Assembly: GCF_038594945.1 (NCBI RefSeq)
Contig: NZ_JBCFYD010000002.1
Span: forward strand, 1,178,001 to 1,242,000
DNA: 64,000 nucleotides
DNA from: Fodinibius sp. Rm-B-1B1-1
GTDB taxonomy: Bacteria > Bacteroidota > Rhodothermia > Balneolales > Balneolaceae
Reading direction: 5' to 3'
Shown: piece by piece, positions 10,873-58,677 of the stretch
Numbering within the stretch: position 1 is the first letter of the stretch
How the letters are laid out: every line of letters begins with the position of its first letter
Made by a program: the position numbers and the translations under genes
Notes under the pieces: generated by a model
What the model saw: only the letters and a program-made list of their open reading frames with translations
What the model was told of the DNA's origin: nothing
Database searches by the model: none

Positions 10873-10920
10873 TCCTGTAATGTTAGATTGAAATTTATAA
10901 CAAAAACTGTTGTCTCATTG

Positions 10921-38991: not shown

Positions 38992-39024
38992 AACAGGGTT
39001 GCTTGCCGTTAAAGAAATGAAAAG

Positions 39025-39109
39025 TACCCGAGGTCGGACTCGAACCGACACGACCGCAATGGCCACCGGATTTTGAATCCGGCGCGTCTACCAATTCCGC
39101 CACTCAGGC
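39025..39109 (-). tRNA. tRNA-Leu (anticodon CAA)
   Basis: 85 nt, type II cloverleaf. Acceptor arms GCCTGAG and CTCGGGT with discriminator A; D-arm GGCGGAATTGGTAGACGC; anticodon stem CCGGA/TCCGG around the loop TTCAAAA, giving anticodon CAA for UUG; a long variable arm (TGGCCATTGCGGTCGT); T-arm GTCGG TTCGAGT CCGAC. CCA is not encoded. Its 5' end marks the border with the accessory region. Confidence 0.95.
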
Positions 39110-41632: not shown

Positions 41633-44029
41633 ATGAGTATATCTGAAAAACTATATCCCAACGAAGTTAAAACGATTTTAACTACTATTTTGAACCTAAA
41701 TATCTCTCCAAATGGTAGTGAACAACAAACAATATTAAGTCCCCTTCGGGACGAACAGAACCCATCCTTTAGTATTAATATTAAAACTGGTTATTGGACT
41801 GATCATGGAACTAACGAAAGCGGTGATATCATTACGTTACTGCGAAAAATACTCAATATTAGCTTTTATAAAGCCGTAAAGAAGATAGAACCAGTGGTTG
41901 GTAGACAACTATTAAACCTTGTTGATCAAACAAATACCAAATACGCAAATATTCAGACATCAAACTATTCAAATGGTCATACAGACGACCAACTGTCTAA
42001 AGATATTGATGAACTTATAGCTGAACTTCCCAATGAAAACGATCGAAATCGCCTAACAAATGAGCCTCACCACCCACTACTAAAACAGCTATCGTCATAC
42101 GATTTAATCTCCAAGGAGACGCTTGAAAGGTTCAATTGTGGTATTAAAACACAATGGGATAAAGACTGGCTATCTATTCCCTATCCTACAGGTATGCAGT
42201 TGTATCGTCGGGAAAACGGGGAAAAAGTTATCCGAATGATGAAAGGGAGCAAGCCGAAAGATTCCTGGTTTGGCACAGGTCAGCTAACCGGTAAATCGAT
42301 TCTGTTTATTTGTAAGTCACCTCGTGAGGCGATGATGCTTAGCGAGCGATACAGCGATGTGATTGATGTTATAAGCATTGCATCCGGTGAAATCCCAGAA
42401 ATGTCTGACAAACAAGCCAATGACTTAAAACGAATCGTTAAACACGTTCATACTATAAAGATTCTATTTGACTGTGATACGAACTCTGTCAAACAAACTG
42501 CACACTCGTTTACCCAACATGTTAACCGTTCGGTTACTAATAATAACGTGAATGTTGAATTGGTTAACATTTCGAAGCTCACTAACAACAAATGCAAGGA
42601 TATAACGGATTATTTTAAGCAAGAGCCAGACCCTCAAAAAGTGTATAAAAAGATTCTTGCCAAAGGAACCACAATCCAACATAGAAAAAAGCGTCTTTCG
42701 GATATATTCAGCAATGAATGGAACGTGCAACAGGCCAAACCACACGGCGACAAGGTTTTTGAAAGACTGCCCAAAGCATTAAAAGAAATCACGGACCTAT
42801 TTCCCGACCAGTCCGAACGTGATGTGTTCCTTAATGCAGCCCTTCCAGTGTTATCTGCCCATTTGCCTAACGTACATATTCCTCATCGAGATGGAGCTTA
42901 TTCTCCTGATCTTTATACCATTGTTATAGCAAAACCGGGATCTGGCAAAGGAATCGCTGAAAAGGCTCGAAAGATTGGTCATCAGTTAAACAACAAACTT
43001 ATTGAAGACGGTAAAAAGGAACTACTAAAGTGGGAAGGATTACCCAAAAAGGATAAAGAGAAAACCCCTAAGCCTATTCCGCGTCAACTATTCCTGCCGG
43101 GCAATACCAGCTCTCGGGCATTGTATGACTTTTTAGCCCATAACGATGGACGTGGACTTATTTTTGAAACCGAAATCGATACCCTTGTCAATGCTACCCG
43201 ACAGGATTGGGGCGATTTTACGGATGTTATACGAAAGGGATTCCATCACGAACCCTCAACGATGAGACGAAAGAACGATAATATGTATATCGAACGGCCT
43301 GAGCTATCAATTTTTATGTCTGGTACGTTTGACCAATTTTCGAAACTGTTTGACAATGCAGAAAACGGACACTTCAGCCGGTATGCCTATTATACATTTG
43401 AATCCAAATTGACGTGGAAGACCCACCGTCCCACGAATAACTCCCAACAACTCGCTGAAAAGTTAGACCATTTTTCATCGGTGATGTTCAAAACGTATAA
43501 TATCTTAAAAGAGAAAGAATCTCCGCTTGTCATACAATTAGAAGACCGTCATTGGGACTACCTCAATGATACCTTTATGCATAAGATGCAGGAGCTCGAA
43601 GACCATGGAATGAGCCGGTACCTGCAATCAAATAATCAACGGATTGCGGTAATAGCACTTCGAATAGCCGCCATTATGTGTATTGTCAGAAATATAATAG
43701 CAACTAAACCAGAAATTGTTAAACGCTCAACACTAATCGTAACCAATGCAGACATGGAGGTAAGTATTGGGCTGGCGCAAAACTTTCTGGACCATGCCAT
43801 TCGGCTGTTTCACTTGCTCCCCGGTAGCTCCGCCAAACCTTCTAACAACAAAACCATGAATCGCTTTTTTTATGCCCTGCCTGAGCGATTTGAAACCAAT
43901 CAGGCCTATTTTTATGGTTATGAAGCGGGTATACCCGAACGTACCGTACGCAACTATTTAAAAAAGTTATGCGATCAAGAGTTTCTTTATAAAAAAGCAC
44001 ACGGATCGTATGTCAAAACGGATCACTAA
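41633..44029 (+). CDS. DUF3987 primase/helicase-like protein
   Basis: 798 residues. The N-terminus (about 35-85, LSPLRDEQNPSFSINIKTGYWTDHGTNESGDIITLLRKI) has the plan of a CHC2-type primase zinc domain but with the cysteines replaced. A Toprim-like stretch follows (about 220-290, SILFICKSPREAMMLSERY ... IKILFDCDTN). The C-terminal half is a DUF3987 P-loop ATPase with Walker A IAKPGSGKG near residue 432 and GLIFETEIDTLVNATRQDWGDFTDVIRKGFHHE further on. The last 60 residues look like a winged helix (YGYEAGIPERTVRNYLKKLCDQEFLYKKAHG). It probably primes or unwinds the element's own DNA. A 9-bp repeat array starts three bases after its stop. Confidence 0.82.
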   Translation: MSISEKLYPNEVKTILTTILNLNISPNGSEQQTILSPLRDEQNPSFSINIKTGYWTDHGTNESGDIITLLRKILNISFYKAVKKIEPVVGRQLLNLVDQTNTKYANIQTSNYSNGHTDDQLSKDIDELIAELPNENDRNRLTNEPHHPLLKQLSSYDLISKETLERFNCGIKTQWDKDWLSIPYPTGMQLYRRENGEKVIRMMKGSKPKDSWFGTGQLTGKSILFICKSPREAMMLSERYSDVIDVISIASGEIPEMSDKQANDLKRIVKHVHTIKILFDCDTNSVKQTAHSFTQHVNRSVTNNNVNVELVNISKLTNNKCKDITDYFKQEPDPQKVYKKILAKGTTIQHRKKRLSDIFSNEWNVQQAKPHGDKVFERLPKALKEITDLFPDQSERDVFLNAALPVLSAHLPNVHIPHRDGAYSPDLYTIVIAKPGSGKGIAEKARKIGHQLNNKLIEDGKKELLKWEGLPKKDKEKTPKPIPRQLFLPGNTSSRALYDFLAHNDGRGLIFETEIDTLVNATRQDWGDFTDVIRKGFHHEPSTMRRKNDNMYIERPELSIFMSGTFDQFSKLFDNAENGHFSRYAYYTFESKLTWKTHRPTNNSQQLAEKLDHFSSVMFKTYNILKEKESPLVIQLEDRHWDYLNDTFMHKMQELEDHGMSRYLQSNNQRIAVIALRIAAIMCIVRNIIATKPEIVKRSTLIVTNADMEVSIGLAQNFLDHAIRLFHLLPGSSAKPSNNKTMNRFFYALPERFETNQAYFYGYEAGIPERTVRNYLKKLCDQEFLYKKAHGSYVKTDH

Positions 44030-44434: not shown

Positions 44435-45808
44435 TCAATCAGAAACTTCGTACTCTAAATCTTTCACTTTAATGTTGTTAATCTTTAAATCAGAAGGTAA
44501 GTCATACATATCAACTATTTTTGCAGCTTCTTTCAAACTTTCTATTTCAACAGTGTTAGAGGCACCTCCTGTAATATTAGACTCTGGGAAAAAATCATTT
44601 TTTAAATAATCTATAAAATTCCCTCCTACAACGGCATCTTCACTTCTAATTTTTTTCATAATTCGACCATTTCCTTTTGCATCCTTATATATCGGTGGTA
44701 TATGTATTTTTAATAAACTCAATAGTAAAATATGGGGATAAAAATCCTTCTTCTTTTCCTCTCTACAGCTACTAATAGAAATAGAAAATAGAGTTAATGT
44801 CCGTTCAATTGATCTGGGGTTATAATCAACATATCTCCAAGATTTTCGGATCAAATTATAAAGGCCCTCAGAATCAAAAATACTTTCTATTATTTGAAAT
44901 GAGTCAACTAATTCTTCAATGTATAACTTTAAATTATCATCGTCATTAGTCCGTAAATCTTTTAGAGTAGGTAAATTTGTTTCTACATGGACAAATTTTT
45001 GTAAATATACATATGCATCATCTTCATTTACTCCATAAGCATGTTTAACAATTTCAACCAACTGTTCCCGGTTTATAGCCAACACAAAGTTGACATGAGA
45101 AACACTAAATAAATGCTTAATCTTTTCTATTACATGAATAGCAAAATCGGGTCTACACCTATCTAATTCATCTACGAAAAATATTATCCTTTTATCTTTA
45201 ATATCCGGCCCAACTTCCAATAAAGCTTCCAGGGCTTCTTGGTATTCTTGGATCGTTTTTCTTCTATTTAAAAAGGCATCATATTTTTCTGATACAAGCC
45301 CTTTATTCTCTCGTTTATCCAGTTCTTCTGCTTTATCAAATAATATATCCCATATACTATCCGCTTTTAACAATCCTCCGGTAGCTAATTTTAATGTTGT
45401 ATTAGCCCCCATCTTAACAAGTTCAATACCTAATTTTTTGGCTACTTCTTTATAACCATCAATGAGGTGTTCCTTGTCATGATCTAAATCAAACTTTTCA
45501 TAGTGTCTCTTTATAGCCTCTTGAATAGTTACGGCAATTGAAATAAATGCATCACTGGCAAAATCATTTTCAAACGCATCGTAATAGATAGGAATAAATT
45601 GTTCTGATTCCTCAAGCTCATCCTTCCAGAGTTTGATGAAGGTTGTTTTACCTTCACCCCAATCAGCATTAATGGTTAATGTCAGAGAATCCTCGGTTGA
45701 CGAGAGTAGGTTTGTCAAATTATCCTTGAAATCCTCTCGATTGAAAAAATCATTTCGTACACTCCCCTCCTTTACTCTCTCGTAGTATGGTGGAATTGTA
45801 TGCTTCAT
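44435..45808 (-). CDS. KAP-family P-loop NTPase
   Basis: 457 residues. Walker A is ADWGEGKTT (48-56) and Walker B IIFFVDELDRCRPDFAIHVIEKIKHLF (208-234) with Asp213 and Glu214, both typical of the KAP family (named from Kidins220/ARMS and PifA). FVLAINREQLVEIVKHAYG (about 241-259) is the following sensor segment. The usual membrane insertion is reduced here to one moderately hydrophobic helical stretch (about 125-150). PifA is an F-plasmid phage-exclusion protein, so a defence role is plausible by family and context. It begins two bases after the 5'-nucleotidase stop and is the last gene of the leftward run. Very AT-rich. Confidence 0.85.
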   Translation of the reverse strand: MKHTIPPYYERVKEGSVRNDFFNREDFKDNLTNLLSSTEDSLTLTINADWGEGKTTFIKLWKDELEESEQFIPIYYDAFENDFASDAFISIAVTIQEAIKRHYEKFDLDHDKEHLIDGYKEVAKKLGIELVKMGANTTLKLATGGLLKADSIWDILFDKAEELDKRENKGLVSEKYDAFLNRRKTIQEYQEALEALLEVGPDIKDKRIIFFVDELDRCRPDFAIHVIEKIKHLFSVSHVNFVLAINREQLVEIVKHAYGVNEDDAYVYLQKFVHVETNLPTLKDLRTNDDDNLKLYIEELVDSFQIIESIFDSEGLYNLIRKSWRYVDYNPRSIERTLTLFSISISSCREEKKKDFYPHILLLSLLKIHIPPIYKDAKGNGRIMKKIRSEDAVVGGNFIDYLKNDFFPESNITGGASNTVEIESLKEAAKIVDMYDLPSDLKINNIKVKDLEYEVSD

Positions 45809-45810
45809 AT

Positions 45811-46743
45811 CTAATTATCTTTATTAGCTATACCGAATGGAATATGAACTAAAGTAATATTTTTTAAATCCTGATCGAGGTGAGATTTTTGATCATCAAT
45901 AAATAAATGAGGTTTTAACACTTCCAGTACTCGTTTTTTCTTAATCCCTCCTAAAAAGAACATTTCATCTACTGAAACACCCCAATGCTCCAAAGTATTA
46001 ATTGCTCTTTCATGAGAAGGTGCATTACGAGCAGTAACAATTGCAGTTTTAAGTATTTTATTATAGTCAGGATCTTTTTCTTTTTTCTTCGACTCTAACT
46101 TCTGAAAGAAGGCTAATTTTCTAAAAAAATCAGCTAATATTCCGGGACTATGAGGTTTTACGACATTTTCAGTTTCATGATCATGAAAAGCATCCAATTG
46201 GTCTTCAGCTTGATAAACTTTTTCTGCCTCATCATCAATTACAACTCCGTCAAAATCAAAGGCGACTCTTAGTTCCATCTCCTCGTCATCATCTTCAATA
46301 TCTGATTTAAGTATCAAACCAGCTGGATAGTTCAGATCAATACTTTTATTCACATCATCTTGATCCGTAGTTAAAAATAAGGAGATATTATATGATGGAA
46401 GATATACATGGGGCGATTTCCCAGAGGTGAAGACTCCTCTTGTAATGTCTAAATCATATTCCTGAATTGAGTTAAAAATTCGTACCCCTGTTTCCGGACT
46501 ATTTTTAGATAATAAAACTACTTCAACAGGTACTTTTTCATCATAGACGTCATTAATATTCAGGAATCTCTTTACAAATGGGAATGCCAAACCCTTTTCG
46601 AGTATTGTTTCACGATTTTGTATTTGAAACTTCTTGTAGGCCTCTAATCCGTCTCTTCTAAAAATTTTGTCTTCTTTTTTTAAATCAAAGAGGGCACTGG
46701 ATGAGATACCAACAACAAGCTTTTTTTCAATTGGATATGGCAT
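45811..46743 (-). CDS. HAD-type 5'-nucleotidase (PF06189-like)
   Basis: 310 residues that follow the bacterial cytosolic 5'-nucleotidase family closely. The N-terminal half carries LVVGISSSALFDL and VEVVLLSKNSPETGVRIFNSI, with ITRGVFTSGKSPHVYL. The HAD motifs are in the second half: RVAFDFDGVVIDDEAEKVYQ (159-178, nucleophile Asp163), IVTARNAPSHERAINTLEHWGV (235-256, motif II Thr237) and KPHLFIDDQKSH (277-288, the acidic DD pair). It probably removes the 5' phosphate of nucleoside monophosphates. It sits 12 bases behind a type IIG restriction-modification gene and 2 bases ahead of a KAP NTPase gene, an unusual place for a metabolic enzyme. Confidence 0.85.
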   Translation of the reverse strand: MPYPIEKKLVVGISSSALFDLKKEDKIFRRDGLEAYKKFQIQNRETILEKGLAFPFVKRFLNINDVYDEKVPVEVVLLSKNSPETGVRIFNSIQEYDLDITRGVFTSGKSPHVYLPSYNISLFLTTDQDDVNKSIDLNYPAGLILKSDIEDDDEEMELRVAFDFDGVVIDDEAEKVYQAEDQLDAFHDHETENVVKPHSPGILADFFRKLAFFQKLESKKKEKDPDYNKILKTAIVTARNAPSHERAINTLEHWGVSVDEMFFLGGIKKKRVLEVLKPHLFIDDQKSHLDQDLKNITLVHIPFGIANKDN

Positions 46744-46755
46744 CGTAGTTTAGAT

Positions 46756-49700
46756 TTAGTTACCCACACTCTCTTCCACAATCCCAATTTCCTCCTCACT
46801 CAACCCATAAAGCTCATAAACAAGTTGGTCTATCTCCTCCTCCAGCTTGCTGGTGTCAGCTTCAGGGTCTTCTTCTTTGGCAGTGAGGATTTGATCGACA
46901 AGGGATTCTATTTTCTGTGGTAGATCTGAATTGTTAGCACTGGGGATAGGAAATTCTTTAAAATAGACATAGCTTGGCTCATAGTAGTCCCCCCTAAGTT
47001 TCGGAAGTATGACTTCGAATAAAAAATGCGTGGTTTTACTATTAAGGACACCTAATAGAAATTTATCATTTAATGAAATTATGTAGCATTTCTGATTAGT
47101 AATTTTGTTATCAGTATCGAAAGTAAATTCTGGACGATTGCAAATATTGGGGAAAACTATTTTATCCTCCGCAAATTGATCGTAATACGAACATGCCCTT
47201 AATTCCCACCAATATTCGCCCTGATCGTATCTTTTCTTAGCTCTATTCTTGAAGTTTTCTAAATGTTTTGCAATTGCTGGATACTCATTTTTAAACCAAT
47301 TCCATTTATTTTCTGAGGTTGCATTATTCTCTGTAAATCCATCAGGTATTAGAATTACGAAAGACTCATTTATTGGTTTTTTGTATCTCTTAATCTCATT
47401 TCCTACGAGAAAAGGTTTTATCAGGTCAGTGCTCTTTCTATCTTTTTCTATAAGTTTATCTTTAGTTTCTTTATCTATCAGAAAGGCATCATTTAGACCA
47501 GTAATAATCCCCCGATAGATATTATCATTTGCATAGTCTTCAACTCTTGTCCCTTTTGCCCTTAATTCTTCAATAAGTTTTTGGGCTTTTTCTCCTACTA
47601 AAGTCCATCCTTCATCAAGTAACTTTGTTTGGTCTACACTAAAACTACTTTCAGCAATTAGCGAAGCTAAATCTTCGAATTCGAGAGATTCTATTTCCAT
47701 TGCTTTAAAACTTTCTGTTACCTCAGTTTTATTGATCTGAAGTAAGCATGGATAAGCAGACGCTTCCTGAAAAACTGGTAGATCACCAAAATCAATCAGT
47801 GATTTTAACTGATAATTACTTAAAAATTCACGAAGTGGTTGACCGTAATTTGTCCTCAGCCATTTGTTTGAAACTATGTAATGAAAGGTACCTTTATGTG
47901 TAAGCAAATTAATACCTTGTTCTACAAAATACTGATATAGGTCAGCAGTGCCGTAATACACTTCAAAACTCTCTGACAAATAATCTTTTATATCTTTCAA
48001 CGCTTCTTGTCGCACATAAGGCGGATTTCCAATCACTGCATCAAAGCCGGTGTAATTTCCGTCCTCATCCAGCACTTCAGGAAACTCAAACCGCCATTCA
48101 AAGGCTTGTTCGTAGAAGGTAGCACTTTCAAGTTCCTCTAACTCCTCTTCCAATTTGCCAATTTTCTTTTTGGTCTTCTTTATTTTCTTCTGGTCCTTTT
48201 TGCTCTTCTTTCCGCCCTCAAACAAGTCCAGCTTGGCTTCTTCCTTAATCAGTACCTCACGCTGCTTTTTAAGTTTTTGTCGGACGGGGTGCAGTTCTTT
48301 AAGTCCCACTGAGAAACTCTCCTTAATAGAGTTAATCTTCTTTTTCAGCGCCCGTTTATCCTCCTGGTCACCGGTTTCCTTGTAGCTTCGTACGGCTTGT
48401 TTATACTCTTCAATCGTCAGATCATCGTTGTTGGCCAGAATCTGAGAAAGGTCGGCATCCAGATCAAAACGGCTTACCAGCGAGTTGCCCTTCTTGATGT
48501 TAATATCAATGTTGGGTAGTACTTCAAGCTGTTGGAAGTCCGTACCTTCTTTGTAATAGGCGTGCTTGAGCAACTCAATCCACAGGCGAAGCCGACAGAT
48601 ATTGACGGAATTGGGATTGATATCTACCCCAAACAAACAGTTTTCAATGAGGATATTCTTTTCGCGGAACAGAGCTTTCTGCAGTCGCTGGGTATCAGAG
48701 CCGACCGTACGCTCTAAACGATTGTTCTCCTTCCAACTGTGGTGCACCCGGTATTCAAAGAAGGGATCTTGTCCCACTGAGATGCTTAACTCATCATTAT
48801 CCACGCTAATATCCACATCCCGAATGCGATGATTCTCCTCATCCACAAAGATGCGTAGATCACTTTTAATAGCAATTAGTTCATTCAAGGCCGAAACCAA
48901 AAAGTGTCCGGACCCTACGGCCGGATCACAAATGGTAATGCTATTTACAATCTTGTTGGCTTCATCATACGGGACTTCATGACGAGCAATCTTTTGGGAT
49001 ACCTCTTCAATATCTTCACATTCCCACCCATTGTACTCATCATTAAACTTCTGTACCACCGCCCGACGAATGGTCTCCCGACACATATATTCGGTGATGT
49101 AGCCGGGCGTAAAAAATGAGCCATCCTTATAGCCGTTAATCTTTTCGAATATACGTCCCAGTACCGACGCATTGATCAGCGTCTTGGCTTCTTCCTGAAC
49201 TTCGGCTGTGCCCTCGGTATTAAAGTTATAGGCATCCAGGAAGCGCAGCAGGTATTCGAGCGCAGATAGCTCTTCTCCTTTCAGACGCTGACCATCCCGA
49301 TCCGTAATTTTACTGCGGTTATAAACCGGCATTTCTAATCCGTCTTCCAAAGCGGAAATAAAGATGGCATCCGCTTCAATATCAGCCACATCAAAAAGTG
49401 AGCTATTCAGGTATGGGATATGACCGAAATGCGTATTAATGCGATCAGAACGCTCTTCAACCGGTACGGCCAATACCTGAAAGAAAAGCTTATTCAGTCC
49501 ATCGTACTCCTCAATGTCACGGTGATTTAAAAACCGGAACCGATCATCTTCGCGATGATATTTGAAGAGCTGGGCTTCCAACAGCTTTAAAAACAGGATG
49601 CGATTGATCCAGGTAATCAGCAGTTGGATGGCCACATTAAATAGCTGCTCTTCTTCATCGTCCCCAAACTCCGATCGATTCGGCAGCCGTGATAATACAT

Positions 49701-50601
49701 TCACACTTTTGAGCTGGGTAATCGTATTCTCAATAAGCGAGGCATGCTGACGGTTCTCCTCATCCAGTCGCGTAATATAGTGGGTCCCTTTTTCTTTGTA
49801 TTCCTTAAGCCCCATGATATACAGCAGCTCTTTGTAAAACGCCTTGTTGAGCTCGTTGCTATCACTGGCAAAGGGTTGCTTGAGTAGGTGCGTTGGCGTA
49901 AATAGTTTAAAGACCGGAACCAGCTTTTTTTGCTCATCTCTACTTAATTCTTCTTTCTCTAACAGCGTACGGTATTTTGTGATATCCAGCTTAGCTGCCT
50001 GAATCGTGGTATCCAGCTCATCAACAAACGCCGAAAGATGGTTATATACAAAGTCGGTACGCGAGCTTACCTTTTGTCCCTGTTTCCACTCTTCATACCA
50101 TCCCGTTAAGGTTTTCGACTCATAAAAATGACGTTCAAAATCCTGGGCATCGAAAATATACCACTGGTAGGTATCGGTAATGATGATATGCTTAATATCT
50201 TCATTGCCATTATCGATGCGTTCCCGCAGGTAATATAAAATCGTCTCGTGGAAGGCCTTGCGATTCAGATCATCCCCGGTAATCATTTTGTTATTAGAAG
50301 GGCGTTTGGCTTCTATAATCACCCCTACCTTCGACTGGCGGGTTTTACCGTTGTGGATTGCTAAATCCTGCCGCTCCTTGGTGTTGATATAGTGCTCTTC
50401 TTCAAAATTAGTGTTATCAAAGAAGGGCTTCATTAATCCTTTGAGGTGTTCTTCGGTTTCGCTGTCTTTGACCGCATCATCCGCCTCATTTAACAGCTTC
50501 AACAAACGCTGACGAAAGGTCTCAAATTCGGTTTTTGTGATAGACTCTTGAAGGAAAGCGTTATCAACGGCTCGTCTTGCGGAAATCGTCGCTATCTGCA
50601 T
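46756..50601 (-). CDS. Type IIG restriction-modification enzyme (Eco57I-like)
   Basis: One 1281-residue chain that combines nuclease, methyltransferase and target recognition. The N-terminal PD-(D/E)XK nuclease shows Asp79 (ERQDLAI) and Glu97-Ala-Lys99 (VIIEAKRP). The helical linker spans about 150-480. The N6-adenine methyltransferase has motif I DPAVGSGHFLVSAL (559-572) and motif IV NPPY (859-862) preceded by FDAVIG. A coiled, lysine-rich insert (about 770-830) separates them. The C-terminal 400 residues are the target recognition domain, ending in LRGDYYEPSYVYFKEFPIP. A specificity subunit is not needed. The DNA of the C-terminal part is visibly more AT-rich than the rest. It heads the 5'-nucleotidase/KAP operon. 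Confidence 0.9.
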   Translation of the reverse strand: MQIATISARRAVDNAFLQESITKTEFETFRQRLLKLLNEADDAVKDSETEEHLKGLMKPFFDNTNFEEEHYINTKERQDLAIHNGKTRQSKVGVIIEAKRPSNNKMITGDDLNRKAFHETILYYLRERIDNGNEDIKHIIITDTYQWYIFDAQDFERHFYESKTLTGWYEEWKQGQKVSSRTDFVYNHLSAFVDELDTTIQAAKLDITKYRTLLEKEELSRDEQKKLVPVFKLFTPTHLLKQPFASDSNELNKAFYKELLYIMGLKEYKEKGTHYITRLDEENRQHASLIENTITQLKSVNVLSRLPNRSEFGDDEEEQLFNVAIQLLITWINRILFLKLLEAQLFKYHREDDRFRFLNHRDIEEYDGLNKLFFQVLAVPVEERSDRINTHFGHIPYLNSSLFDVADIEADAIFISALEDGLEMPVYNRSKITDRDGQRLKGEELSALEYLLRFLDAYNFNTEGTAEVQEEAKTLINASVLGRIFEKINGYKDGSFFTPGYITEYMCRETIRRAVVQKFNDEYNGWECEDIEEVSQKIARHEVPYDEANKIVNSITICDPAVGSGHFLVSALNELIAIKSDLRIFVDEENHRIRDVDISVDNDELSISVGQDPFFEYRVHHSWKENNRLERTVGSDTQRLQKALFREKNILIENCLFGVDINPNSVNICRLRLWIELLKHAYYKEGTDFQQLEVLPNIDINIKKGNSLVSRFDLDADLSQILANNDDLTIEEYKQAVRSYKETGDQEDKRALKKKINSIKESFSVGLKELHPVRQKLKKQREVLIKEEAKLDLFEGGKKSKKDQKKIKKTKKKIGKLEEELEELESATFYEQAFEWRFEFPEVLDEDGNYTGFDAVIGNPPYVRQEALKDIKDYLSESFEVYYGTADLYQYFVEQGINLLTHKGTFHYIVSNKWLRTNYGQPLREFLSNYQLKSLIDFGDLPVFQEASAYPCLLQINKTEVTESFKAMEIESLEFEDLASLIAESSFSVDQTKLLDEGWTLVGEKAQKLIEELRAKGTRVEDYANDNIYRGIITGLNDAFLIDKETKDKLIEKDRKSTDLIKPFLVGNEIKRYKKPINESFVILIPDGFTENNATSENKWNWFKNEYPAIAKHLENFKNRAKKRYDQGEYWWELRACSYYDQFAEDKIVFPNICNRPEFTFDTDNKITNQKCYIISLNDKFLLGVLNSKTTHFLFEVILPKLRGDYYEPSYVYFKEFPIPSANNSDLPQKIESLVDQILTAKEEDPEADTSKLEEEIDQLVYELYGLSEEEIGIVEESVGN

Positions 50602-50770
50602 CAGTAAATAGTTAAAAAACCAACTTTTTGTTAGGCCTCATTCTAAGGACTGCAGAGGGAAAGAGCAAAACAGAATTTACACTAAAAATTAGCCAACATA
50701 TTCTGCTTAAATACAGAGTTCAGTTTACACTACCGCTTACACATCTTTAAGTGCTTCAAATAATGAATAC

Positions 50771-52444
50771 TTACTTACCCTTAACATTAAGAATTGAATC
50801 GTCAATAATTGGTGCTGCTTCCACTGCCTGTGGAATGCTTGTATTACAAGCATGACGATGTTTAGCATTTTTTATACTGGATTCTGAAATTAAAACTTCT
50901 TTAAAGTCATCATGTTCACAAAACGGACAACTATCACCATCCAATTTAGAAAAGTATAACAAACACTTCTTACACCTTCGTCCCTCTTTCTCATTTTGCT
51001 CAAACACCCTCTTTTCAGATGCAATCATATCTTGTATCCTTTTCATTACAAGTCTTCTATTCATGAGATTAACCAACTTACTATATAGATACTGAACGCG
51101 CTTTCTCTTTTTCGCTATTTTGTACCTCCTCTTTCCTATAGCTCTTAACCTTCTCAAATGAGCTAAATATTTATCCCAACTATTGATCCTAATTCTAAAT
51201 TTATTATAATCATCGTCATCTGTGTTGAGAATATTAATCTCTGCAAGGTAGTTTAAATACTGTACAATTGGTTTATAGGGACTATCAATCATCCAATTCT
51301 CCTCATCTGAAAAAAACCATGCCCCTTTCTCTCCATACCATTTCCCTCTTCTCTTGCCTATTTTTTTATGCTTTTGTTTTATAGAATTCAAGGTTTCAAC
51401 AAAGTCTAAAATACCATATTTGTTTACCACCCAATTTTTGACCTTGTTGGCTTTTATTATAGTATCAACGGATTCATCCTGTATGAACTTTAGAAAAATA
51501 GCACTTTGCCAAACTTTTGGGTGGACTTGAAATATCCAACCACTATCAGTTTGAACAGAAAATATTTTGGGGCCTACTTCCTCCTCATAACCAATGTGTT
51601 GAAATTGCTTCCGTATAAGATTAGAGTTTGCACTTTCCAACTTGCCAAGACGATCTTCTATTTCTTTACTGTCTTTCGCTTTTTCTAATCTTTCTAAATC
51701 CTCTTGATATAGCTCTCGTTTTTTCTCCTTAAGCTCTTTGAAATCTTTTTTCTTTTCTTTCTGCTTTCTAATTTTTTTGTTTATTTGCTCAACTTTTATT
51801 TCTAATTGAGCCAAGTTCTTTTCATAATTTTCTTCTCCCTTAGGATTGTGAATCCATTCTTTATTTTCGACATTCTGTATTACCTCCCAATTAAATTGCT
51901 CAATATCTAAAAGTGTGTCTTCAGTTAAATCACTTAAATCAATTTCAAGCATTGGTTCTTGCACTGATTTAATCAAAGAAGCTTTTTCCTCATCCACCTC
52001 ATGAGAAACTTTGATTTCTATATTTAAAGATTTCCCATTTTTAAAAGCTATAACATCTGGTCTATATCCACTTTTTGACACTTCTACATCGACTCTGTCA
52101 AACTCAACATTGTCAGGTGGGATATGAGTGTTTTTACCGTAATGAGGTATCCCTTCATCATCATAGGCTATCGTCTCTTTTGAATACTTAGGAGTATAAA
52201 TTAAAAGTTCATCCTGTATAATTTGTTTAGCCATAAGATGAATAGCCGTTTCAAGTGAACCTGGGCATTGCGTAGATTTATAATGTGCAAAATGTGGAAC
52301 CTTCTTCTTACCCTGATTGCGTGCAATTAATTTAGCTTCACAGTTAGGACAAATACAATTGCATTTTAACCCATTCTCTACTTTTGTAATGTGGTATAAT
52401 CGCCCCTCTTTGAGGCCAAAGGGTAGTTTTATATCCCCTGACAT
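50771..52444 (-). CDS. CoiA-like nuclease with two zinc-binding motifs
   Basis: 557 residues. The N-terminus has a CoiA-type zinc region: CNCICPNCEAKLIARNQGKKKVPHFAHYKSTQCPGSLETAIHLMAK (28-73). It continues into a PD-(D/E)XK-like core: GYRPDVIAF (Asp130) and LNIEIKVSHEVDE (Glu143, Lys145). A long coiled coil (about 200-290, KKIRKQKEKKKDFKELKEKKRELYQEDLERLEKAK) and a helical middle follow, then a second CxxC pair (CKKCLLYFSKLDGDSCPFC, about 495-515). CoiA is known from competence, but in this setting a DNA-processing or defence nuclease is likelier. It is 169 bp upstream of the type IIG gene, same strand, and very AT-rich. Confidence 0.78.
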   Translation of the reverse strand: MSGDIKLPFGLKEGRLYHITKVENGLKCNCICPNCEAKLIARNQGKKKVPHFAHYKSTQCPGSLETAIHLMAKQIIQDELLIYTPKYSKETIAYDDEGIPHYGKNTHIPPDNVEFDRVDVEVSKSGYRPDVIAFKNGKSLNIEIKVSHEVDEEKASLIKSVQEPMLEIDLSDLTEDTLLDIEQFNWEVIQNVENKEWIHNPKGEENYEKNLAQLEIKVEQINKKIRKQKEKKKDFKELKEKKRELYQEDLERLEKAKDSKEIEDRLGKLESANSNLIRKQFQHIGYEEEVGPKIFSVQTDSGWIFQVHPKVWQSAIFLKFIQDESVDTIIKANKVKNWVVNKYGILDFVETLNSIKQKHKKIGKRRGKWYGEKGAWFFSDEENWMIDSPYKPIVQYLNYLAEINILNTDDDDYNKFRIRINSWDKYLAHLRRLRAIGKRRYKIAKKRKRVQYLYSKLVNLMNRRLVMKRIQDMIASEKRVFEQNEKEGRRCKKCLLYFSKLDGDSCPFCEHDDFKEVLISESSIKNAKHRHACNTSIPQAVEAAPIIDDSILNVKGK

Positions 52445-52597
52445 AACTATATTTGGCTAAAGTACTTAAGTATATTTTGTGATATACTTTAATCTAAAAT
52501 TTATGAATCAACAAATCAGAAGTAAATTTCTTTTATTGCTAACAATAATTTTTATTACAAATGAATTAATAAATTAGTAATCCATTTGTTTAGAGAT

Positions 52598-55500
52598 ATG
52601 ATTCCTGAAAATATTACGAAGGAGCACATTAACAATGCGTTGGCAGAAATAGATAAAAAGGGAGTGCCACAAGGTCGCCATTCAACAACATACGACCTTC
52701 TTTGTGATGGTAAGACCTATCCTCCCAAATTAGTCCTCTCCATAGCTAATAAATATGCTAATGGAGAAGAGCTGGACCCAAGTGAATTTAAAGGTGGTGA
52801 AGGGACTCCCGCTTTTAAAAAGCTCAAAGAATTAGGATATGACATTATTCCTAAGAAAGATGAAGTAGCTGAACCGGACACCGATTACAATTCAATTCAG
52901 AAAGAGTTAATTGAACGTTATAAGAAATTAATTCAAGCGGATAACAACGAAAAAGAGCTATATAAGTGGCAGCTTGTAAAAGAATTTCAACAAAAATGGG
53001 ATATTGATGCTGAAAACTTTGCTGAAATGGCTCAAGGTATTGAGTTCGGTAATCTATTGGACTATAGGAGCAAGACTCTTATTCACTTTGTAGAGGATTA
53101 TCCGGAGGAGGCTCGCTCGTTATTTAAGATGCTGTATGACGAGACAATTCCTGTGAAAAAACGAATTGATGATTTTGGTGAGCAAGCAGAAGAATTAGTT
53201 AGAGAGCATTATCCTGATAAAGGATCATTTCAAGATGAGCGTACTATAGCTACCTATCTTACTTTTAGGTATCCAGATAAATACACCTTCTATAAGTATT
53301 CTTTTTACTCAGATTATACTGATTTATTAGGGATTGATAGACCTTCAGCCGGTGAACGATATATTCATTATTTAGAGCTTATAGAAAAATTTATTGATGA
53401 GTTTATCTCTAAGGATAAAGAGCTGATAGAATTATCTCGAAAAACGTTGACAGATGACTGTTACGAAGATGATAATCTAAACCTACTGGCTCAGGATATT
53501 TTATTCAGAACCTTAGAAGGTGAAAAAGAGTCCGAAAGTGATTTTAAAGAGGTTTTGGACCAAATGGAATATGAGCAAGCCTCAAAATATTTCAATGGCC
53601 TCCAAAAAGTTGTCAAAGAGTTAAAGGTAGAACCTTCCGATCAGCGAGTAGTCTTTAGCGTTCGCACGGACAGCCCAAGATTAAATCTAACTATCGGGCA
53701 GCGCTATTGTTTAAGTTTCTATGCTGATAAGGAAAAACCATGGAGATTTATTCATCCAAATAGCAGAGTAAACTCAAAAACCGGTGAAAAATTTAATGGA
53801 CCACCAGAGGCATATTTCCATTGGACTAAGAGCTATACCGAATTGCAGGAAGAATTTGATAGTATCACAGCTGCTTCTCTAAAAGAATTAGAACGTACTC
53901 AAAGTTCCAGTTTTAAAAAGTACAATAACGATTTCTTTGAGAAAGCTGTATTTGATGATCAATATAAAAGAGAAGTATTTAAAGACGTTTTTGATATGGA
54001 AGCAGATAGATTACCAAAGGTTAAGAGCTATCTTAAAAAGTTTTCAGAAGTAGCTGACCAACATTTTACAGAAAGAGCCTTTGTAGAACGAAGGTATGAG
54101 TACTTTCAGGATTTCTTTAAAAAAGAAAACTTGAAGCAAGCTGAGTGGAGTGATTTTCAAGAGATGGGGGAAAAAGTCCATGGCCTTGCTACTAACGCTT
54201 TAGCCTTGAAAAGAGCTTTTGGCGATCCCAATCATGACATCAAACGCTATCGCAAGGCGTTTTTATATCTGGCCTATGGCGATGATCCGTTATCAGATCG
54301 AATCAATGCAATGCTGGATAATGACAGCGAATATCATCTAAAATATTTGGCTGAATCCTTTTACGGTGAATTAGTTGGGTATTTATTCCCTGAAAAATAC
54401 GTGTTTTATAATCGCCGAGATAAAGAAGCTACCTCCTTTTTGGAATTGGATATATCCCGTGAACGTGGAGAATCGTTTGGTGATTTCTTTATTCGATATA
54501 ACAATCAGCTAAGTCCACTTATAGAACTTTATAAAGAGATCGTTGGTAGGAGAACCGAAACAACCATACCGTTGGAATTAGATCAGTTTTTTAGTTGGCT
54601 GTACGAAAATCACGTATCCAAAGAAGAATCGGATGTCAGTAAAGAGGTAGCTGAAGAAGATCGCAATTACTGGTGGCTAAATGCGAATCCGGATATTTGG
54701 CGTTTTTCTGAGAAAGAAGTGGGACAAGAGCAATGGTATACATCCCGCAATGACAATGGAAACAAACGACGTATATACCAACATTTTCAAGAAGTAGAGC
54801 CTGGTGACTTGATAATTGGATATGAATCTACTCCGGTAAAGCGCGTTAAAGCCGTACTGGAAGTTACAGAAGCTCTGCATACTGATGATGACGACAAAGA
54901 AAAATTTACATTTAGGTTAAAAGAGTTTACACCGAATCAACCGGGTTGGGATGCCTTACAATCGATTCCTGAATTGGAAAGCTGCTCTGTCCTGAATAAT
55001 AACCAAGGCAGCCTATTTAAGCTTACAGAAGATGAATTCTTGACGATACGAGATCTGGCATTTAACGGGGTCCAACAACATTCCCCCTATACCATGGAGG
55101 ACGCACTGAATGAAGTGTTCATGCAGGAAGAAGAGCTCCAAAATATTCTCGATCTGTTAGAGTATAAGAAGAATATCATACTACAAGGTCCTCCAGGTAC
55201 TGGAAAAACATTTTTAGCTAAGCGTTTAGCCTGGCTAATGTCTGGTTTTAAAGATCGAAACCGTATAGAAGTCGTACAATTTCACCAGTCCTACTCGTAC
55301 GAAGACTTTATCAGAGGCTATCGTCCCACAGAAGATCACTTTGAGCTGAAGGACGGCATTTTTATGCAGATGTGTAAGCGAGCAAAGTCAGACCCAGAAA
55401 ATAGACCGTATTTCTTGGTCATTGATGAAATAAACCGTGGAAATTTAAGTAAGATTTTTGGTGAGCTCATGATGCTCATCGAAAATGATAAGCGTGGTAA

Positions 55501-55957
55501 AGATTTTACCGTTAAGTTGCCCTATAGGAAAGGTGAAGATGATCCCAACTTTTATATCCCGAAGAATCTACATCTCATTGGCACAATGAATACGGCTGAT
55601 CGATCGCTGGCTATGGTTGATTATGCTCTTCGCCGACGGTTTGTCTTTATTGATATGATGCCCAACTTCGGGGATAAGTTCCAGAACCACCTTAAAGAGC
55701 GAGGTGTTGAAGAGCATTTAATTGATACCATTGTAGAGCGTCTCCGTGAACTGAACAATAAAATAGCTGATAAACAAGAGCTGGGGCCTGGACCTGGTTA
55801 CCAGATTGGACACAGTTATTTTTGTGGTACCAAGAACGGTGACGAAGATTGGTATAAAAATATCATCGAATACGAAATTATACCGCTTCTTAATGAATAT
55901 TGGTTTGATAAACCTACCAAAGTAGAAGAAATTGAAGAGCAACTGCTTACGATATGA
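52598..55957 (+). CDS. mcrB: McrB-type GTPase with ScoMcrA-like head and EVE domain
   Basis: 1119 residues from the ATG at 52598 (a TTG twelve bases earlier is possible). The first 90 residues (ITKEHINNALAEIDKKGVPQGRHSTTYDLLCDGKTYPPKLVLSIANKYANG) resemble the ScoMcrA N-terminal head. After a long helical part comes an EVE domain (about 690-820, YWWLNANPDIWRFSEKEVGQEQWYTSRNDNGNKRRIY...VEPGDLIIGYESTP), a reader of modified cytosine. The C-terminal AAA+ GTPase has Walker A ILQGPPGTGKTFLAKRLAW (about 865), Walker B FLVIDEINRGNLSKIFGELMMLIE (about 942) and the McrB signature GTMNTADRSLAMVDYALRRRF (about 996). It powers DNA translocation for cleavage of modified foreign DNA by McrC, whose gene overlaps it. 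Confidence 0.9.
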   Translation: MIPENITKEHINNALAEIDKKGVPQGRHSTTYDLLCDGKTYPPKLVLSIANKYANGEELDPSEFKGGEGTPAFKKLKELGYDIIPKKDEVAEPDTDYNSIQKELIERYKKLIQADNNEKELYKWQLVKEFQQKWDIDAENFAEMAQGIEFGNLLDYRSKTLIHFVEDYPEEARSLFKMLYDETIPVKKRIDDFGEQAEELVREHYPDKGSFQDERTIATYLTFRYPDKYTFYKYSFYSDYTDLLGIDRPSAGERYIHYLELIEKFIDEFISKDKELIELSRKTLTDDCYEDDNLNLLAQDILFRTLEGEKESESDFKEVLDQMEYEQASKYFNGLQKVVKELKVEPSDQRVVFSVRTDSPRLNLTIGQRYCLSFYADKEKPWRFIHPNSRVNSKTGEKFNGPPEAYFHWTKSYTELQEEFDSITAASLKELERTQSSSFKKYNNDFFEKAVFDDQYKREVFKDVFDMEADRLPKVKSYLKKFSEVADQHFTERAFVERRYEYFQDFFKKENLKQAEWSDFQEMGEKVHGLATNALALKRAFGDPNHDIKRYRKAFLYLAYGDDPLSDRINAMLDNDSEYHLKYLAESFYGELVGYLFPEKYVFYNRRDKEATSFLELDISRERGESFGDFFIRYNNQLSPLIELYKEIVGRRTETTIPLELDQFFSWLYENHVSKEESDVSKEVAEEDRNYWWLNANPDIWRFSEKEVGQEQWYTSRNDNGNKRRIYQHFQEVEPGDLIIGYESTPVKRVKAVLEVTEALHTDDDDKEKFTFRLKEFTPNQPGWDALQSIPELESCSVLNNNQGSLFKLTEDEFLTIRDLAFNGVQQHSPYTMEDALNEVFMQEEELQNILDLLEYKKNIILQGPPGTGKTFLAKRLAWLMSGFKDRNRIEVVQFHQSYSYEDFIRGYRPTEDHFELKDGIFMQMCKRAKSDPENRPYFLVIDEINRGNLSKIFGELMMLIENDKRGKDFTVKLPYRKGEDDPNFYIPKNLHLIGTMNTADRSLAMVDYALRRRFVFIDMMPNFGDKFQNHLKERGVEEHLIDTIVERLRELNNKIADKQELGPGPGYQIGHSYFCGTKNGDEDWYKNIIEYEIIPLLNEYWFDKPTKVEEIEEQLLTI

Positions 55958-57009
55958 AGCAGGTACCGGTCCAAAATATCTATTACCTATTAAGCTACGC
56001 TTGGGATAAGCTGGATGAAGCCGAGCTAACCAAGGCTGGGATTGACGATTTTGAGGAGGTGGCCAACCTTTTGGGTAAAGTATTAGCCAACGGCTGTAGC
56101 TATCTATTCAAGCGGGGACTGTATCGAAATTACCGGCAGAAAGAAGAGGAAATCCCGGGTATTCGAGGGAAGCTGTTAATCGATGAATCATTAAGTAGTC
56201 TTTCTTTTCAGAATAAAAAAGCTTGGTGCCAGTATGATGAACTAAGCCGCAACGTGTTACCCAATCGCATTCTTAAATCTACGGTATTGCGGCTCTTACA
56301 AATGCCTGAAATCGAGAATGGTTTGCATCGAGAGTTAAAGGAGATCTATTACCGATTTTCCGATGTTGAAGAGATTCGCCTACAAGGTCACCATTTTACA
56401 CAAGTTCAAATACATCGGAACAATGCCTTTTACGGATTTTTGATACAGATCTGCCAGCTAATATTTGAATCTTCAGCACTGGATGAATCTGGGCAGCGAT
56501 ATCAATTCAGGGACTTTACCCGAGATCATCAAAAATTGGCTCGTCTCTTTGAAGCGTTTGTCTTTAACTTTTATCAGAGAGAACAAAATCGATACAAAGT
56601 AAAAAGTCCCAGCTTTCCTTGGCCCTTTAAATCTGAGATAGAGGAGCACAACGAATTAATGCCCTCTATGTTTACCGATATCGTATTAGAAGACGATGAG
56701 CGTATCATTATTATTGATACCAAGTTTTATTCCAAAACAATGGCCCGTCGTGAAGATATAGACTCCATCTCATTTAAGTCGCCCAATATGTATCAGATCT
56801 TTGCCTATATGCAGCATATTCCCAATCCTGAAAATAAAAAGGTAGAAGGCATGTTGCTTTATCCGGATGTGGGAGATTCCATTCATGCTACTTATACGTG
56901 GAATGATCAAGCATTGACGTTTAAGACAGTAGATTTGAATAACGAATGGGAAAACATTGAGGCTGAACTTTTCGAACTAATAGATTTAATTAAACATATT
57001 TCAGCATAA
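55954..57009 (+). CDS. mcrC: McrC-type nuclease of the modification-dependent system
   Basis: 351 residues, the McrBC 5-methylcytosine restriction component. The N-terminal module has NIYYLLSYAWDKLDEAELT and IPGIRGKLLIDESL; the C-terminal PD-(D/E)XK nuclease shows FTDIVLEDDERIIIIDTKFYSK (about 240-258) with the acidic D and D-x-K pattern. It shares an ATGA overlap with mcrB, so the two are translated together and act as one complex. No third partner is present. Confidence 0.92.
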   Translation: MKQVPVQNIYYLLSYAWDKLDEAELTKAGIDDFEEVANLLGKVLANGCSYLFKRGLYRNYRQKEEEIPGIRGKLLIDESLSSLSFQNKKAWCQYDELSRNVLPNRILKSTVLRLLQMPEIENGLHRELKEIYYRFSDVEEIRLQGHHFTQVQIHRNNAFYGFLIQICQLIFESSALDESGQRYQFRDFTRDHQKLARLFEAFVFNFYQREQNRYKVKSPSFPWPFKSEIEEHNELMPSMFTDIVLEDDERIIIIDTKFYSKTMARREDIDSISFKSPNMYQIFAYMQHIPNPENKKVEGMLLYPDVGDSIHATYTWNDQALTFKTVDLNNEWENIEAELFELIDLIKHISA

Positions 57010-57210: not shown

Positions 57211-58677
57211 TTATTGTTTAAACTTCCTTACAAAGTCATCAATAGATATCCGCTTAAGTTCATTCTGACTTTTCTTAAACAAATAACCCTCCCCGAAATC
57301 TAAGTATAGCGGACAAGAAGCCATATTCCAGCTTTTTCTTTTTTGTTTCCAATCAAATTCGTAGTGACCTTTTTGGGTACGCATAATCTCAAAGCCCTTA
57401 CTTTTTGTGTCACTAACTATTTTTTCTCTTTCCTTTTTCAAAAAACTTTCTTTTGAGTTAACTATTTTAGATTTTTTTTGAATTAACTCCTTTTTTGATT
57501 CTTTCAACTCTTCTACTTTAGCCCACAAGTTGTTGTTTTCTTTGTTTAGCTTATCAATTTTTGACTCGACTAACTCATGTAAATCTTTTATAAGCTCTTG
57601 TTTTTGGAGGATAATTTGTTCCTTTTGATTGATCAATTGCTTTTCCAGATTTTCCAAATTACGCCTTAACGAATTGACTATTTCTGTTAAGTCCAAAAGA
57701 AAGAGGTAGTCTCTTCTTCGATAAGAATAACGTTCAAATTCTTTATCACTACTTATGGACATTAACTCTGGAAATAAAGTATTTTTGTCTTCTTTTTTGA
57801 TTACCTGTGTATTGGTATAGTTTTGGGGACTAATTTCATTGTAGCTTACAATCTTAAAAGATTGTTCCCTTATTTCTAACTCCTCTTTATTATTGATGTA
57901 AGATAACTGCTCCTTAATGGAATTTATTTTATTTTTTACCTGCTCAATTTTTTCTTTTTTATTTAGGTAATCTTCTTTGTAAACATCTGCTACCTCCCAT
58001 TTTATTCTGGATATCAAGTTGTTCCAAATCAAATCGTTTGAATACCAATGATTTAAGATCTTATCAGCGAGAGAGGTTATGTTATTTAATTTACCTTTGC
58101 ATTTTGAAATTAAATCATCGTTTTCTTCAATTTTTGACACTTCGTAATCAATCGAGGATTCTACTGAGGATATTTCATTTTTTAGTCTATCTATTCTTTT
58201 TGATACTCCTTGTTTTAATATGCTTAGGTCTCTTTGGGCATTCCTTTTTATTCGTTGTAAATTTTTATTGACTACACTTTTTAATTGAAGACGTGATTTA
58301 AATTCTTCAGCATTAATTATCCAAATCATATCACCGTAAAAATTTTCCCTTCTTCTTATTTCAGAAGAAGAAATTGGTGAGTTTTGAAATTCCAGTACTT
58401 TTCCACTTGGGGTTTGGATATCTGCACGATGAATTTCATCAGCTTTACTAATTACGACTTCTTGCCATTCATCGGGGAATCGGGATTTCCATTCTACATG
58501 CCATTGAGTTTCTTCGCCTGACCATTCATCACAATCCCTTTTACTCTCATGTTGCCAATGACGTCTAAACTCTCCATAATGTCCTATCACTATACTTTGA
58601 CAAACTGGACATCTTGCTTTTTGGCCAGAATGTTTGGGGCTTATTTTATTCCCATTTTTATCAAGTGCAAATTGCAT
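57211..58677 (-). CDS. CoiA-like nuclease with long coiled coil
   Basis: 488 residues. N-terminal zinc-binding pattern RCPVCQSIV (Cys23, Cys26) with RRHWQHESKRDCDEW (His40, His43, Cys49), then the CoiA nuclease core: WHVEWKSRFP (60-69), HRADIQTPSGKVLEFQNSPISSSEIRRRENFYGDMIWIIN (83-122), with Asp86 and Glu96-Phe-Gln98. From about residue 130 to 420 the chain is nearly continuous coiled coil (RLKNEISSVESSIDYEVSKIEEND, LEKQLINQKEQIILQKQELIKDLHEL). It is less similar to the first CoiA-like gene than a simple paralogue would be. It flanks mcrBC on the other side. Strongly AT-rich. Confidence 0.8.
   Translation of the reverse strand: MQFALDKNGNKISPKHSGQKARCPVCQSIVIGHYGEFRRHWQHESKRDCDEWSGEETQWHVEWKSRFPDEWQEVVISKADEIHRADIQTPSGKVLEFQNSPISSSEIRRRENFYGDMIWIINAEEFKSRLQLKSVVNKNLQRIKRNAQRDLSILKQGVSKRIDRLKNEISSVESSIDYEVSKIEENDDLISKCKGKLNNITSLADKILNHWYSNDLIWNNLISRIKWEVADVYKEDYLNKKEKIEQVKNKINSIKEQLSYINNKEELEIREQSFKIVSYNEISPQNYTNTQVIKKEDKNTLFPELMSISSDKEFERYSYRRRDYLFLLDLTEIVNSLRRNLENLEKQLINQKEQIILQKQELIKDLHELVESKIDKLNKENNNLWAKVEELKESKKELIQKKSKIVNSKESFLKKEREKIVSDTKSKGFEIMRTQKGHYEFDWKQKRKSWNMASCPLYLDFGEGYLFKKSQNELKRISIDDFVRKFKQ

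Follow-up and report, generated by a model that had tools for sequence, protein, structure and literature searches.

A type IIG restriction-modification gene of Fodinibius sp. as the probable first gene of a defence cassette with exchangeable cargo

The stretch of DNA analysed here (the window; 64,000 nucleotides of contig NZ_JBCFYD010000002.1 of Fodinibius sp. Rm-B-1B1-1) contains the gene of a type IIG restriction-modification (RM) enzyme, which is followed on the same strand by the genes of a HAD-type nucleotidase and of a KAP P-loop nucleoside triphosphatase (NTPase). Results of our analysis indicate that this trio resembles one state of an exchangeable device more than a fixed three-gene system, and we assign a probability of about 0.7 to the reading that an exchangeable defence cassette of two layers begins with the IIG gene as its fixed part. 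The first layer would be the IIG enzyme, with its variable target-recognition region, and the second would be whichever second-line module directly follows the IIG stop codon, here the nucleotidase and the KAP NTPase. An exchangeable slot behind the IIG gene is highly probable, and the cargo of this slot is probably antiviral; several of the cargo families are named defences in PADLOC, where the nucleotidase and the KAP NTPase are candidates only. The evidence comes from the order and spacing of the genes, from the variability of the cargo at one chromosomal site, from DNA identity that ends near the IIG stop codon, and from relics of the IIG gene tail in several genomes.

Organization of the three-gene array

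The genes of the array and the parts of the IIG gene are as follows.
46756-50601, minus strand: type IIG RM enzyme (DUF7149, DUF7814, Eco57I methylase, TaqI_C specificity domain), 1281 aa, array gene 1
45811-46743, minus strand: PF06189 nucleotidase (HAD), 310 aa, cargo gene 1, PADLOC candidate PDC-S08
44435-45808, minus strand: KAP P-loop NTPase, 457 aa, cargo gene 2, PADLOC candidate PDC-S20
48015-50676, minus strand: block alike at the DNA level (~80%) to the second IIG copy of the same genome, from ~75 bp before the start codon to ~codon 862
46900-48014, minus strand: variable part of the IIG gene (target-recognition region), with no blastn match to the second copy
46768-46899, minus strand: 3' coding tail of the IIG gene, 132 bp, conserved in the second copy (86%)

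The coordinates of the open reading frames (ORFs) bear out the three leftward genes with gaps of 12 bp (IIG–nucleotidase) and 2 bp (nucleotidase–KAP) that had been described in an initial annotation of the window; all lie on a single strand, and three tight same-strand genes are by themselves ordinary for bacteria. The IIG protein matches DUF7149, DUF7814, Eco57I and TaqI_C in Pfam as well as the PADLOC type IIG model (E = 2.8e-284). It contains Asp79, Glu97 and Lys99, the sequence DPAVGSG at 559 and NPPY at 859, so that the PD-(D/E)XK residues, the N6-adenine methylase motifs and a target-recognition domain are found in one polypeptide, as is characteristic of type IIG enzymes. Cutting of unmethylated DNA and methylation of its own site are its predicted activities. 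The nucleotidase is a full-length match to PF06189 (profile positions 1-302 of 302, E = 1.5e-121) and to PDC-S08 (2.8e-130), and the residues of its HAD motifs I-IV (Asp163, Asp165, Thr237, Lys269, Asp283, Asp284) are invariant across 43 aligned sequences including that of the window. The third protein belongs to PF07693 (E = 2.9e-41), with a Walker A motif GEGKT at 51-55 that includes Lys54 and a Walker B motif VDELD, and it matches PDC-S20 (2.9e-74). The earlier assignments of a complete type IIG enzyme, a HAD 5'-nucleotidase with all its motifs and a KAP P-loop NTPase are thus confirmed by the residues present and by the family matches. Elsewhere in the genome, the IIG gene has a second copy (83% identity over residues 1-933), and there is another KAP protein with 54% identity.

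Cargo in the downstream slot of the IIG family

Thirty-seven loci of the IIG family, the strongest and fullest matches, were read, with short, split or contig-end matches mostly excluded; a search centred on another genome gave a nearly identical set of genomes and nothing new. Thirty-five of these loci are readable downstream; L088 and L226 stop at the IIG gene. A same-strand gene is found within 150 bp downstream of the IIG gene in 25 of the 35 loci (19 within 50 bp), and upstream in 7 of 34 (2 within 50 bp); at 150 bp the two sides differ with Fisher p = 3e-5. MmeI-type IIG genes of the same phylum served as a control (20 of 22 places used, one contig-end and one partial place being excluded; L281 and L282 are weak family matches). 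Their same-strand neighbours are found downstream in 7 of 20 and upstream in 8 of 19 cases, and the downstream contrast between the two families at 150 bp (25/35 vs. 7/20) has Fisher p = 0.012.

Selected cargo proteins were scanned with PADLOC and Pfam. All nine close orthologues that are readable downstream, including that of the window, are followed by a same-strand array that starts within 130 bp and holds a known or candidate defence gene of PADLOC. The cargoes are of eight kinds, with Gabija found twice.
Window: nucleotidase and KAP NTPase
L093: HNH and Gabija
L085: HNH and Gabija, assigned via 92-97% identity to L093
L086: HerA-like
L087: ThiF/E1-E2, fourth array gene
L089: Avs2
L090: Dsr1, split over two ORFs
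L091: UG14-group reverse transcriptase and PDC-S32, the second (after a 266-bp gap) and fourth array genes
L092: Tmn

Thus, the RM gene is constant in these nine orthologues and the adjoining module is variable, as is the mark of a second-line defence at an RM locus. Among the farther homologues with adjacent cargo, the arrays of 8 of 16 match PADLOC models at E <= 1e-10, the matches being to PDC-S06, to QatA with QatC, to PDC-S58/ApeA, to PDC-M34B, to an AriA/OLD-like ATPase, to a type II restriction endonuclease, to SIR2-HerA (fourth and fifth genes) and to the three-gene candidate PDC-M64. The match of L215 to PDC-M03A, which lies farther along the array behind a 248-bp gap, was not counted.

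Two observations concern L087. Its IIG gene (8261-12103, genome G009) contains an interrupting stop that splits it into two ORFs, which shows that some anchors are not intact. The array that encodes its ThiF/E1-E2 protein also encodes a 200-aa cargo protein (6721-7323) with a weak CARF/CasR-type match (E 9e-6).

Exchange of cargo at one site and relics of the IIG 3' end

Six close orthologues (L085, L086, L087, L091, L092 and L093) have an AbiEi-like gene downstream in common, and five of them an AbiEii-like gene as well. These DUF6088 (AbiEi-like) and AbiEii-like genes, which have the look of a type IV toxin-antitoxin pair, constitute the constant right-hand border of a site whose cargo changes. 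Five of the six loci also have an integrase and seven further upstream genes in common, while the contig of the sixth, L085, begins 1.9 kb before the IIG gene and has different genes there. Five different cargoes are present among these six loci. In L095, homologues of AbiEi and AbiEii follow a diverged IIG gene after ~300 bp with no intervening cargo gene. A 712-aa protein encoded in L093 (2829-4967) has homologues at matching positions in six loci and is without a Pfam match.

DNA identity to L093 begins ~70 bp upstream of the IIG start and persists to ~codon 863. It does not continue through the recognition region, except in L092, and is back for the last ~132 bp of the IIG gene. In the seven comparisons without shared cargo, its end falls in the interval from 14 bp before to 2 bp after the IIG stop codon; in the four of these that share the site, it returns 95-269 bp before the AbiEi gene.

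A relic of the IIG 3' coding end is present beyond a cargo gene in 6 of the 35 loci (E <= 2e-7), and in five of the six it is also recovered by a protein-level search.
L085 and L093: relic between HNH and GajA
L094 and L210: relic beyond the cargo gene
L213: relic of 58 bp at 95%, which begins 18 bp past the cargo gene and still reads LVYELYGLSEEEIGIVEGS
L220: relic 399 bp past the first cargo gene

In a shuffled control none of 175 stretches gave a match at E <= 1e-5. When 335 other genes with a length of 200 aa or more (244 from IIG loci and 91 from MmeI loci) were put to the same test, 5 matches resulted, two of which are repeats directly at the gene end. The difference from 6/35 has p = 1.5e-4, and p = 9e-4 if the two Gabija loci count as one. 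The position of these relics beyond cargo genes points to cargo entry at the 3' end of the IIG gene, and we read this as insertion that would have occurred via homologous or other recombination in the conserved tail. A bolder proposal, to which we give somewhat less than even odds, is that the recognition region, the short conserved tail and the cargo are exchanged as one unit at a dedicated 3' entry point, with the old tail left as a scar, and that the nucleotidase and the KAP NTPase constitute an undescribed two-gene weapon.

In L218 (~4076-4480), parts of the IIG 3' end recur as a diverged copy in inverted orientation, right behind the IIG gene on the other strand; this copy, which is outside the relic count, is possibly an invertible recognition region.

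Distribution of the nucleotidase and the KAP NTPase

Of 97 genomes, which comprise the window's own and its relatives, 5 encode the nucleotidase, 14 encode KAP homologues and 33 encode IIG homologues. Besides the window's genome, only G046 has both the nucleotidase and a (weak) KAP match, and these are on separate contigs. No KAP gene was found near the nucleotidase in 85 further loci by tblastn with four KAP probes, a search that diverged KAP genes may escape and in which some contigs are short, and no nucleotidase gene within 6 kb of the KAP gene in six plasmid KAP loci. The 85 loci are the best 80 of at least 532 relatives (590 stretches in an alignment-based scan) together with five viral contigs, so the sample is tilted to close relatives; a contig scan with a single nucleotidase sequence found no relative. 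Around 105 nucleotidase loci, including that of the window, no neighbour family occurs in more than 10, and the larger families vary in position and strand. A downstream gene block is common to five loci of one bacterial family (L108, L110, L112, L116 and L121).

PADLOC holds the two cargo proteins as separate candidates, PDC-S08 and PDC-S20, and both occur as single genes on many plasmids. With these counts, with an IIG family that pairs with many other cargoes and with the second KAP gene of the genome elsewhere, we rejected the trio as a conserved system among the loci examined; a joint action of the three genes had been suggested in the initial annotation. Of the recurrence proposed there as its test, the link to KAP failed among the loci examined, and the link of the nucleotidase to restriction genes held in part.

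This latter link is seen in the phylum of the window, where the nucleotidase is present in 13 of 394 genomes and, with the two nucleotidase fragments of G286 excluded, near methylation-based defence genes in 7 of 12 contexts.
Window: type IIG
L029: type I methylase
L032: pglZ-brxL of the bacteriophage exclusion (BREX) system, the nucleotidase following on the same strand
L030: BREX pglZ-brxL, on the other strand
L033: type III methylase
L037: methylase related to Eco57I types and SNF2-type helicase
L038: homologues of the kinds last named, the nucleotidase being a fragment near the contig end

In L028, L031, L034, L035 and L036 no methylation-based defence was recognised among the part of the neighbours that was scanned. 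With one query, the nucleotidase was found in 96 of 5426 Escherichia coli genomes, from which nine contexts were picked to cover the identity range. Annotated type I RM genes lie within ~8 kb of the nucleotidase in eight of the nine (partly broken in L229; on the opposite side and strand in L232), and the ninth, plasmid L021, is without them. In seven of the nine, differing genes separate the RM genes from the nucleotidase: Dsr1 or SIR2 (both on the other strand), an AAA ATPase with HNH, a helicase, or hypothetical genes. A DNA methylase gene is present in two of eight plasmid contexts of the nucleotidase (two of these eight are from E. coli). The association of the nucleotidase with methylation-based defence is clear in two groups, the phylum of the window and E. 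coli, and is not general; the nucleotidase is a mobile gene.

Two further relatives deserve mention. A broken nucleotidase gene with two stops is located on a Zymomonas plasmid (L023, 6893-10462) beside genes of SIR2, a non-canonical purine NTP pyrophosphatase and an adenosine deaminase, a set that recalls what we take to be the Kongming system. The record of cyanophage AS-1 (DQ115828.1; H43) contains a PF06189 relative with 35% identity, so some phages at least encode such an enzyme.

Possible action of the cargo proteins

Any function named here for the nucleotidase or the KAP NTPase is one that we infer. The structure model of the nucleotidase (predicted local distance difference test score 92) seems to be made up of two HAD-like halves, of which the C-terminal half bears the catalytic motifs. 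The alignment of residues 156-310 with 5'(3')-deoxyribonucleotidases reaches Z 8.3-9.2 over 126-134 residues at 3.6-3.9 A. Sequence searches of solved structures found no convincing relative of the nucleotidase (best E 0.3), nor one of the KAP NTPase. The likeness to AphA-type phosphatases (Z 10.1-11.0) was set aside because the alignment falls partly on the wrong half, and no claim is built on the polynucleotide kinase-phosphatases that top the list for the N-terminal half.

In the mechanism that we propose, the cargo would be co-transcribed with the IIG gene and would act upon restriction failure. Upon infection, the KAP NTPase, as a sensor or switch, and/or the nucleotidase would be activated, and the latter would dephosphorylate nucleotides, deoxynucleoside monophosphates being our best guess. 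The phage may then be unable to rebuild its DNA, or the cell may stall. That the two proteins form one system is itself doubtful. A route of defence by depletion of nucleotides has been described: CARF-HAD effectors reduce ATP and IMP (PMC12715507), and the Clover defence employs a dGTPase (PMC12265719). As both this route and guardians of blocked restriction have already been described, we take the nucleotidase and the KAP NTPase as a putative second line behind the IIG enzyme. The idea of a backup to restriction, raised in the initial annotation, is supported by the second-line systems, known or candidate, that occupy the slot in relatives and by the recurrence of the nucleotidase near restriction or BREX genes.

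The probable integrative element and its other genes

The trio is located between two perfect direct repeats, which are likely the ends of a 25,336-bp integrative element.
39066-39105: perfect 40-bp direct repeat, left copy, inside tRNA-Leu (39024-39109)
64362-64401 of the extended contig: right copy of the same 40-bp repeat, just past the window end
63046-64000, continuing to 64173, minus strand: tyrosine integrase, adjoining the right repeat

The name of the integrase derives from a weak blastp match between its part inside the window and an integrase, confirmed by Pfam, at the other IIG locus of the genome. The element also carries an McrB/McrC pair (52586-57009), whose 1123-aa McrB-like protein has an EVE domain ahead of the AAA domain, as well as genes of a primase-like DUF3987/CHC2 protein (41633-44029) and a UmuC-like polymerase (59518-60876). 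By eye only, a LexA-like gene (61957-62607) and an SRAP-like gene (60967-61662) were noted. Upstream of the IIG gene, a 557-aa protein (50771-52444) matches the CoiA N-terminal domain; a 488-aa ORF (57211-58677) is without a Pfam match, and by eye its cysteine-containing start resembles that of the CoiA-type protein.

Discussion

Several results weigh against the reading of the trio as one setting of a two-layer cassette. The contrast with MmeI-type genes weakens at 50 bp (19/35 vs. 6/20, p = 0.10) and after removal of the nine close orthologues (16/26 vs. 7/20, p = 0.14), upstream neighbours of MmeI-type genes are as frequent as downstream ones (8/19 and 7/20), and 10 of the 35 readable IIG loci have no same-strand neighbour within 150 bp. 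The IIG loci are relatives, so the p-values overstate their independence. Of the 16 farther adjacent cargoes, six are without a PADLOC match in the scanned proteins and two have weak ones. The window itself has no 3'-tail relic in DNA and protein-level searches, as is the case for 29 of the 35 loci. With limited probes, RM or BREX homologues were found near the nucleotidase in just 4 of the 85 loci of the broad sample, a fifth match being weak, so the nucleotidase is often solitary. In a panel of 100 Pseudomonas aeruginosa strains, carriers of PDC-S08 are reported to be split 50/50 between phage-resistant and phage-susceptible (PMC10855318). Unrelated ion-cotransporter domains tie with the deoxyribonucleotidases in the same structural list (Z 8.2-9.3), and a Foldseek search with the nucleotidase model gave no solved structure at E <= 0.001. 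Because of this tie, phosphate removal from nucleotides rests on the Pfam family and the HAD motifs, and our confidence in nucleotides as the substrate was lowered slightly, to a little better than even.

The spacing of 12 and 2 bp on one strand and the nucleotidase near restriction or BREX genes in most contexts of the phylum and of E. coli may suggest a dedicated three-gene machine, in which, for instance, the nucleotidase clears the products of restricted DNA and the KAP NTPase drives or senses the process. The lack of a match to four KAP probes (tblastn) in the 85 nucleotidase loci, the absence of the nucleotidase from all six plasmid KAP loci, the separate second KAP gene and the many other cargoes of the same IIG family make such a machine very improbable. 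An ordinary defence island, in which genes accumulate in a mobile element without any special relation and are tightly spaced as is typical of bacteria, would agree with the location of the trio inside a 25.3-kb integrative element that also carries McrBC, with the occurrence of both cargo genes as single genes on many plasmids and with the modest MmeI contrast. However, the downstream/upstream asymmetry, the replacement of cargo between fixed flanks and the 3'-tail relics are not expected from mere clustering, and we consider this explanation quite improbable too.

Two other explanations concern the nucleotidase. Rather than a toxin-like backup, it may be a restriction helper that converts deoxynucleoside monophosphates from degraded phage DNA to nucleosides and so blocks their reuse by the phage, the KAP NTPase being an unrelated passenger. 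The various methylation-based defences with which it is associated in distant bacteria, its family name and its HAD motifs are in line with this role, and a solitary spread would fit a gene useful to many partners; yet most members in the broad sample are without a recognised RM neighbour and the fold matches are not decisive for the substrate, so that we regard the helper role as rather unlikely. Still somewhat less likely, in our view, is a plain nucleotide-salvage enzyme acquired by chance and without a defence role. The solitary members, the lack of any neighbour family in a fixed position among the 105 loci and the even split of the P. aeruginosa carriers agree with salvage, but the gene is rare in the phylum and in E. 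coli, is often near defence genes there, and is a PADLOC candidate found by embedding in other defence systems.

If the IIG gene is indeed the first gene of an exchangeable two-layer cassette, a recognisable gene end shows where new anti-phage modules may be sought, and a gene between the stop codon of an IIG-family gene and a relic of that gene's own tail would be a strong candidate. Restriction enzymes and backup defences would then be reshuffled jointly outside type I loci as well, and the widespread PF06189 nucleotidase and the KAP NTPase, both candidates, would join a short list. If the exchange takes place by whole units, adjacent cargo genes without a PADLOC match (e.g., those of L208, L220, L222 and L223) could be read as weapons by their position in the slot.

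Comparison with known systems

The original embedding preprint is said to be that of Payne et al. 2024. A second defence within an RM locus is already known from type I loci, where the hsdS–hsdR interval is described as a potential recombination hotspot that holds DarTG2 in enteropathogenic E. coli (PMC12255303), and from BREX loci, where backup effectors are recruited next to a primary methylation-based defence (PMC12839542). The loci studied here likewise house a second defence module at an RM locus, and the seven E. coli nucleotidase contexts with differing genes next to type I RM genes are a further parallel. In contrast to type I loci, a type IIG enzyme made of one polypeptide serves as the anchor, the slot follows the stop codon of its gene, and some of the insertions are marked by relics of that gene's own 3' end. 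The words nucleotidase, KAP and type IIG are absent from the main text of the BREX paper (PMC12839542), while here the nucleotidase follows pglZ-brxL in L032.

PrrC and PARIS are guardians that act when restriction is blocked (PMC12707154), and the window cargo would resemble them as a second module for such a case. It differs in that neither PrrC nor AriA/AriB is among the PADLOC matches of the nucleotidase and the KAP NTPase up to E 0.01, and a guardian of the PARIS or PrrC type was therefore set aside. So was QatABCD, as the KAP gene is the last in its array, the next gene is on the other strand, and the match to PDC-S20 (2.9e-74) exceeds that to QatA (3.2e-16). PifA was likewise dismissed: the 457-aa KAP NTPase matches its profile partially (36-359 of 720, E 1.1e-16), far below PDC-S20.

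The CARF-HAD Chp effectors of type III CRISPR systems (PMC12715507) are different from the window nucleotidase, which is without a CARF domain and belongs to another HAD family. Point mutants of Chp HAD motifs are reported to have remained protective (PMC12715507), which leaves phosphatase action as the cause unsettled for Chp. The PDC models are phage-defence candidates obtained by 'guilt-by-embedding' in other defence systems and are not experimentally validated (PMC10855318). The window proteins match two of them, PDC-S08 and PDC-S20, of which, in our own reading of the names, the 'S' stands for single-gene; the pairing behind a type IIG gene belongs to neither model. A search of one open-access library for the trio or for a cargo slot of type IIG genes found nothing, which is a weak negative. 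To the extent of that library, the new features here are the use of a type IIG gene as anchor, the slot that follows the stop codon of this gene in several families of the phylum, and the 3'-tail relics as marks of insertion.

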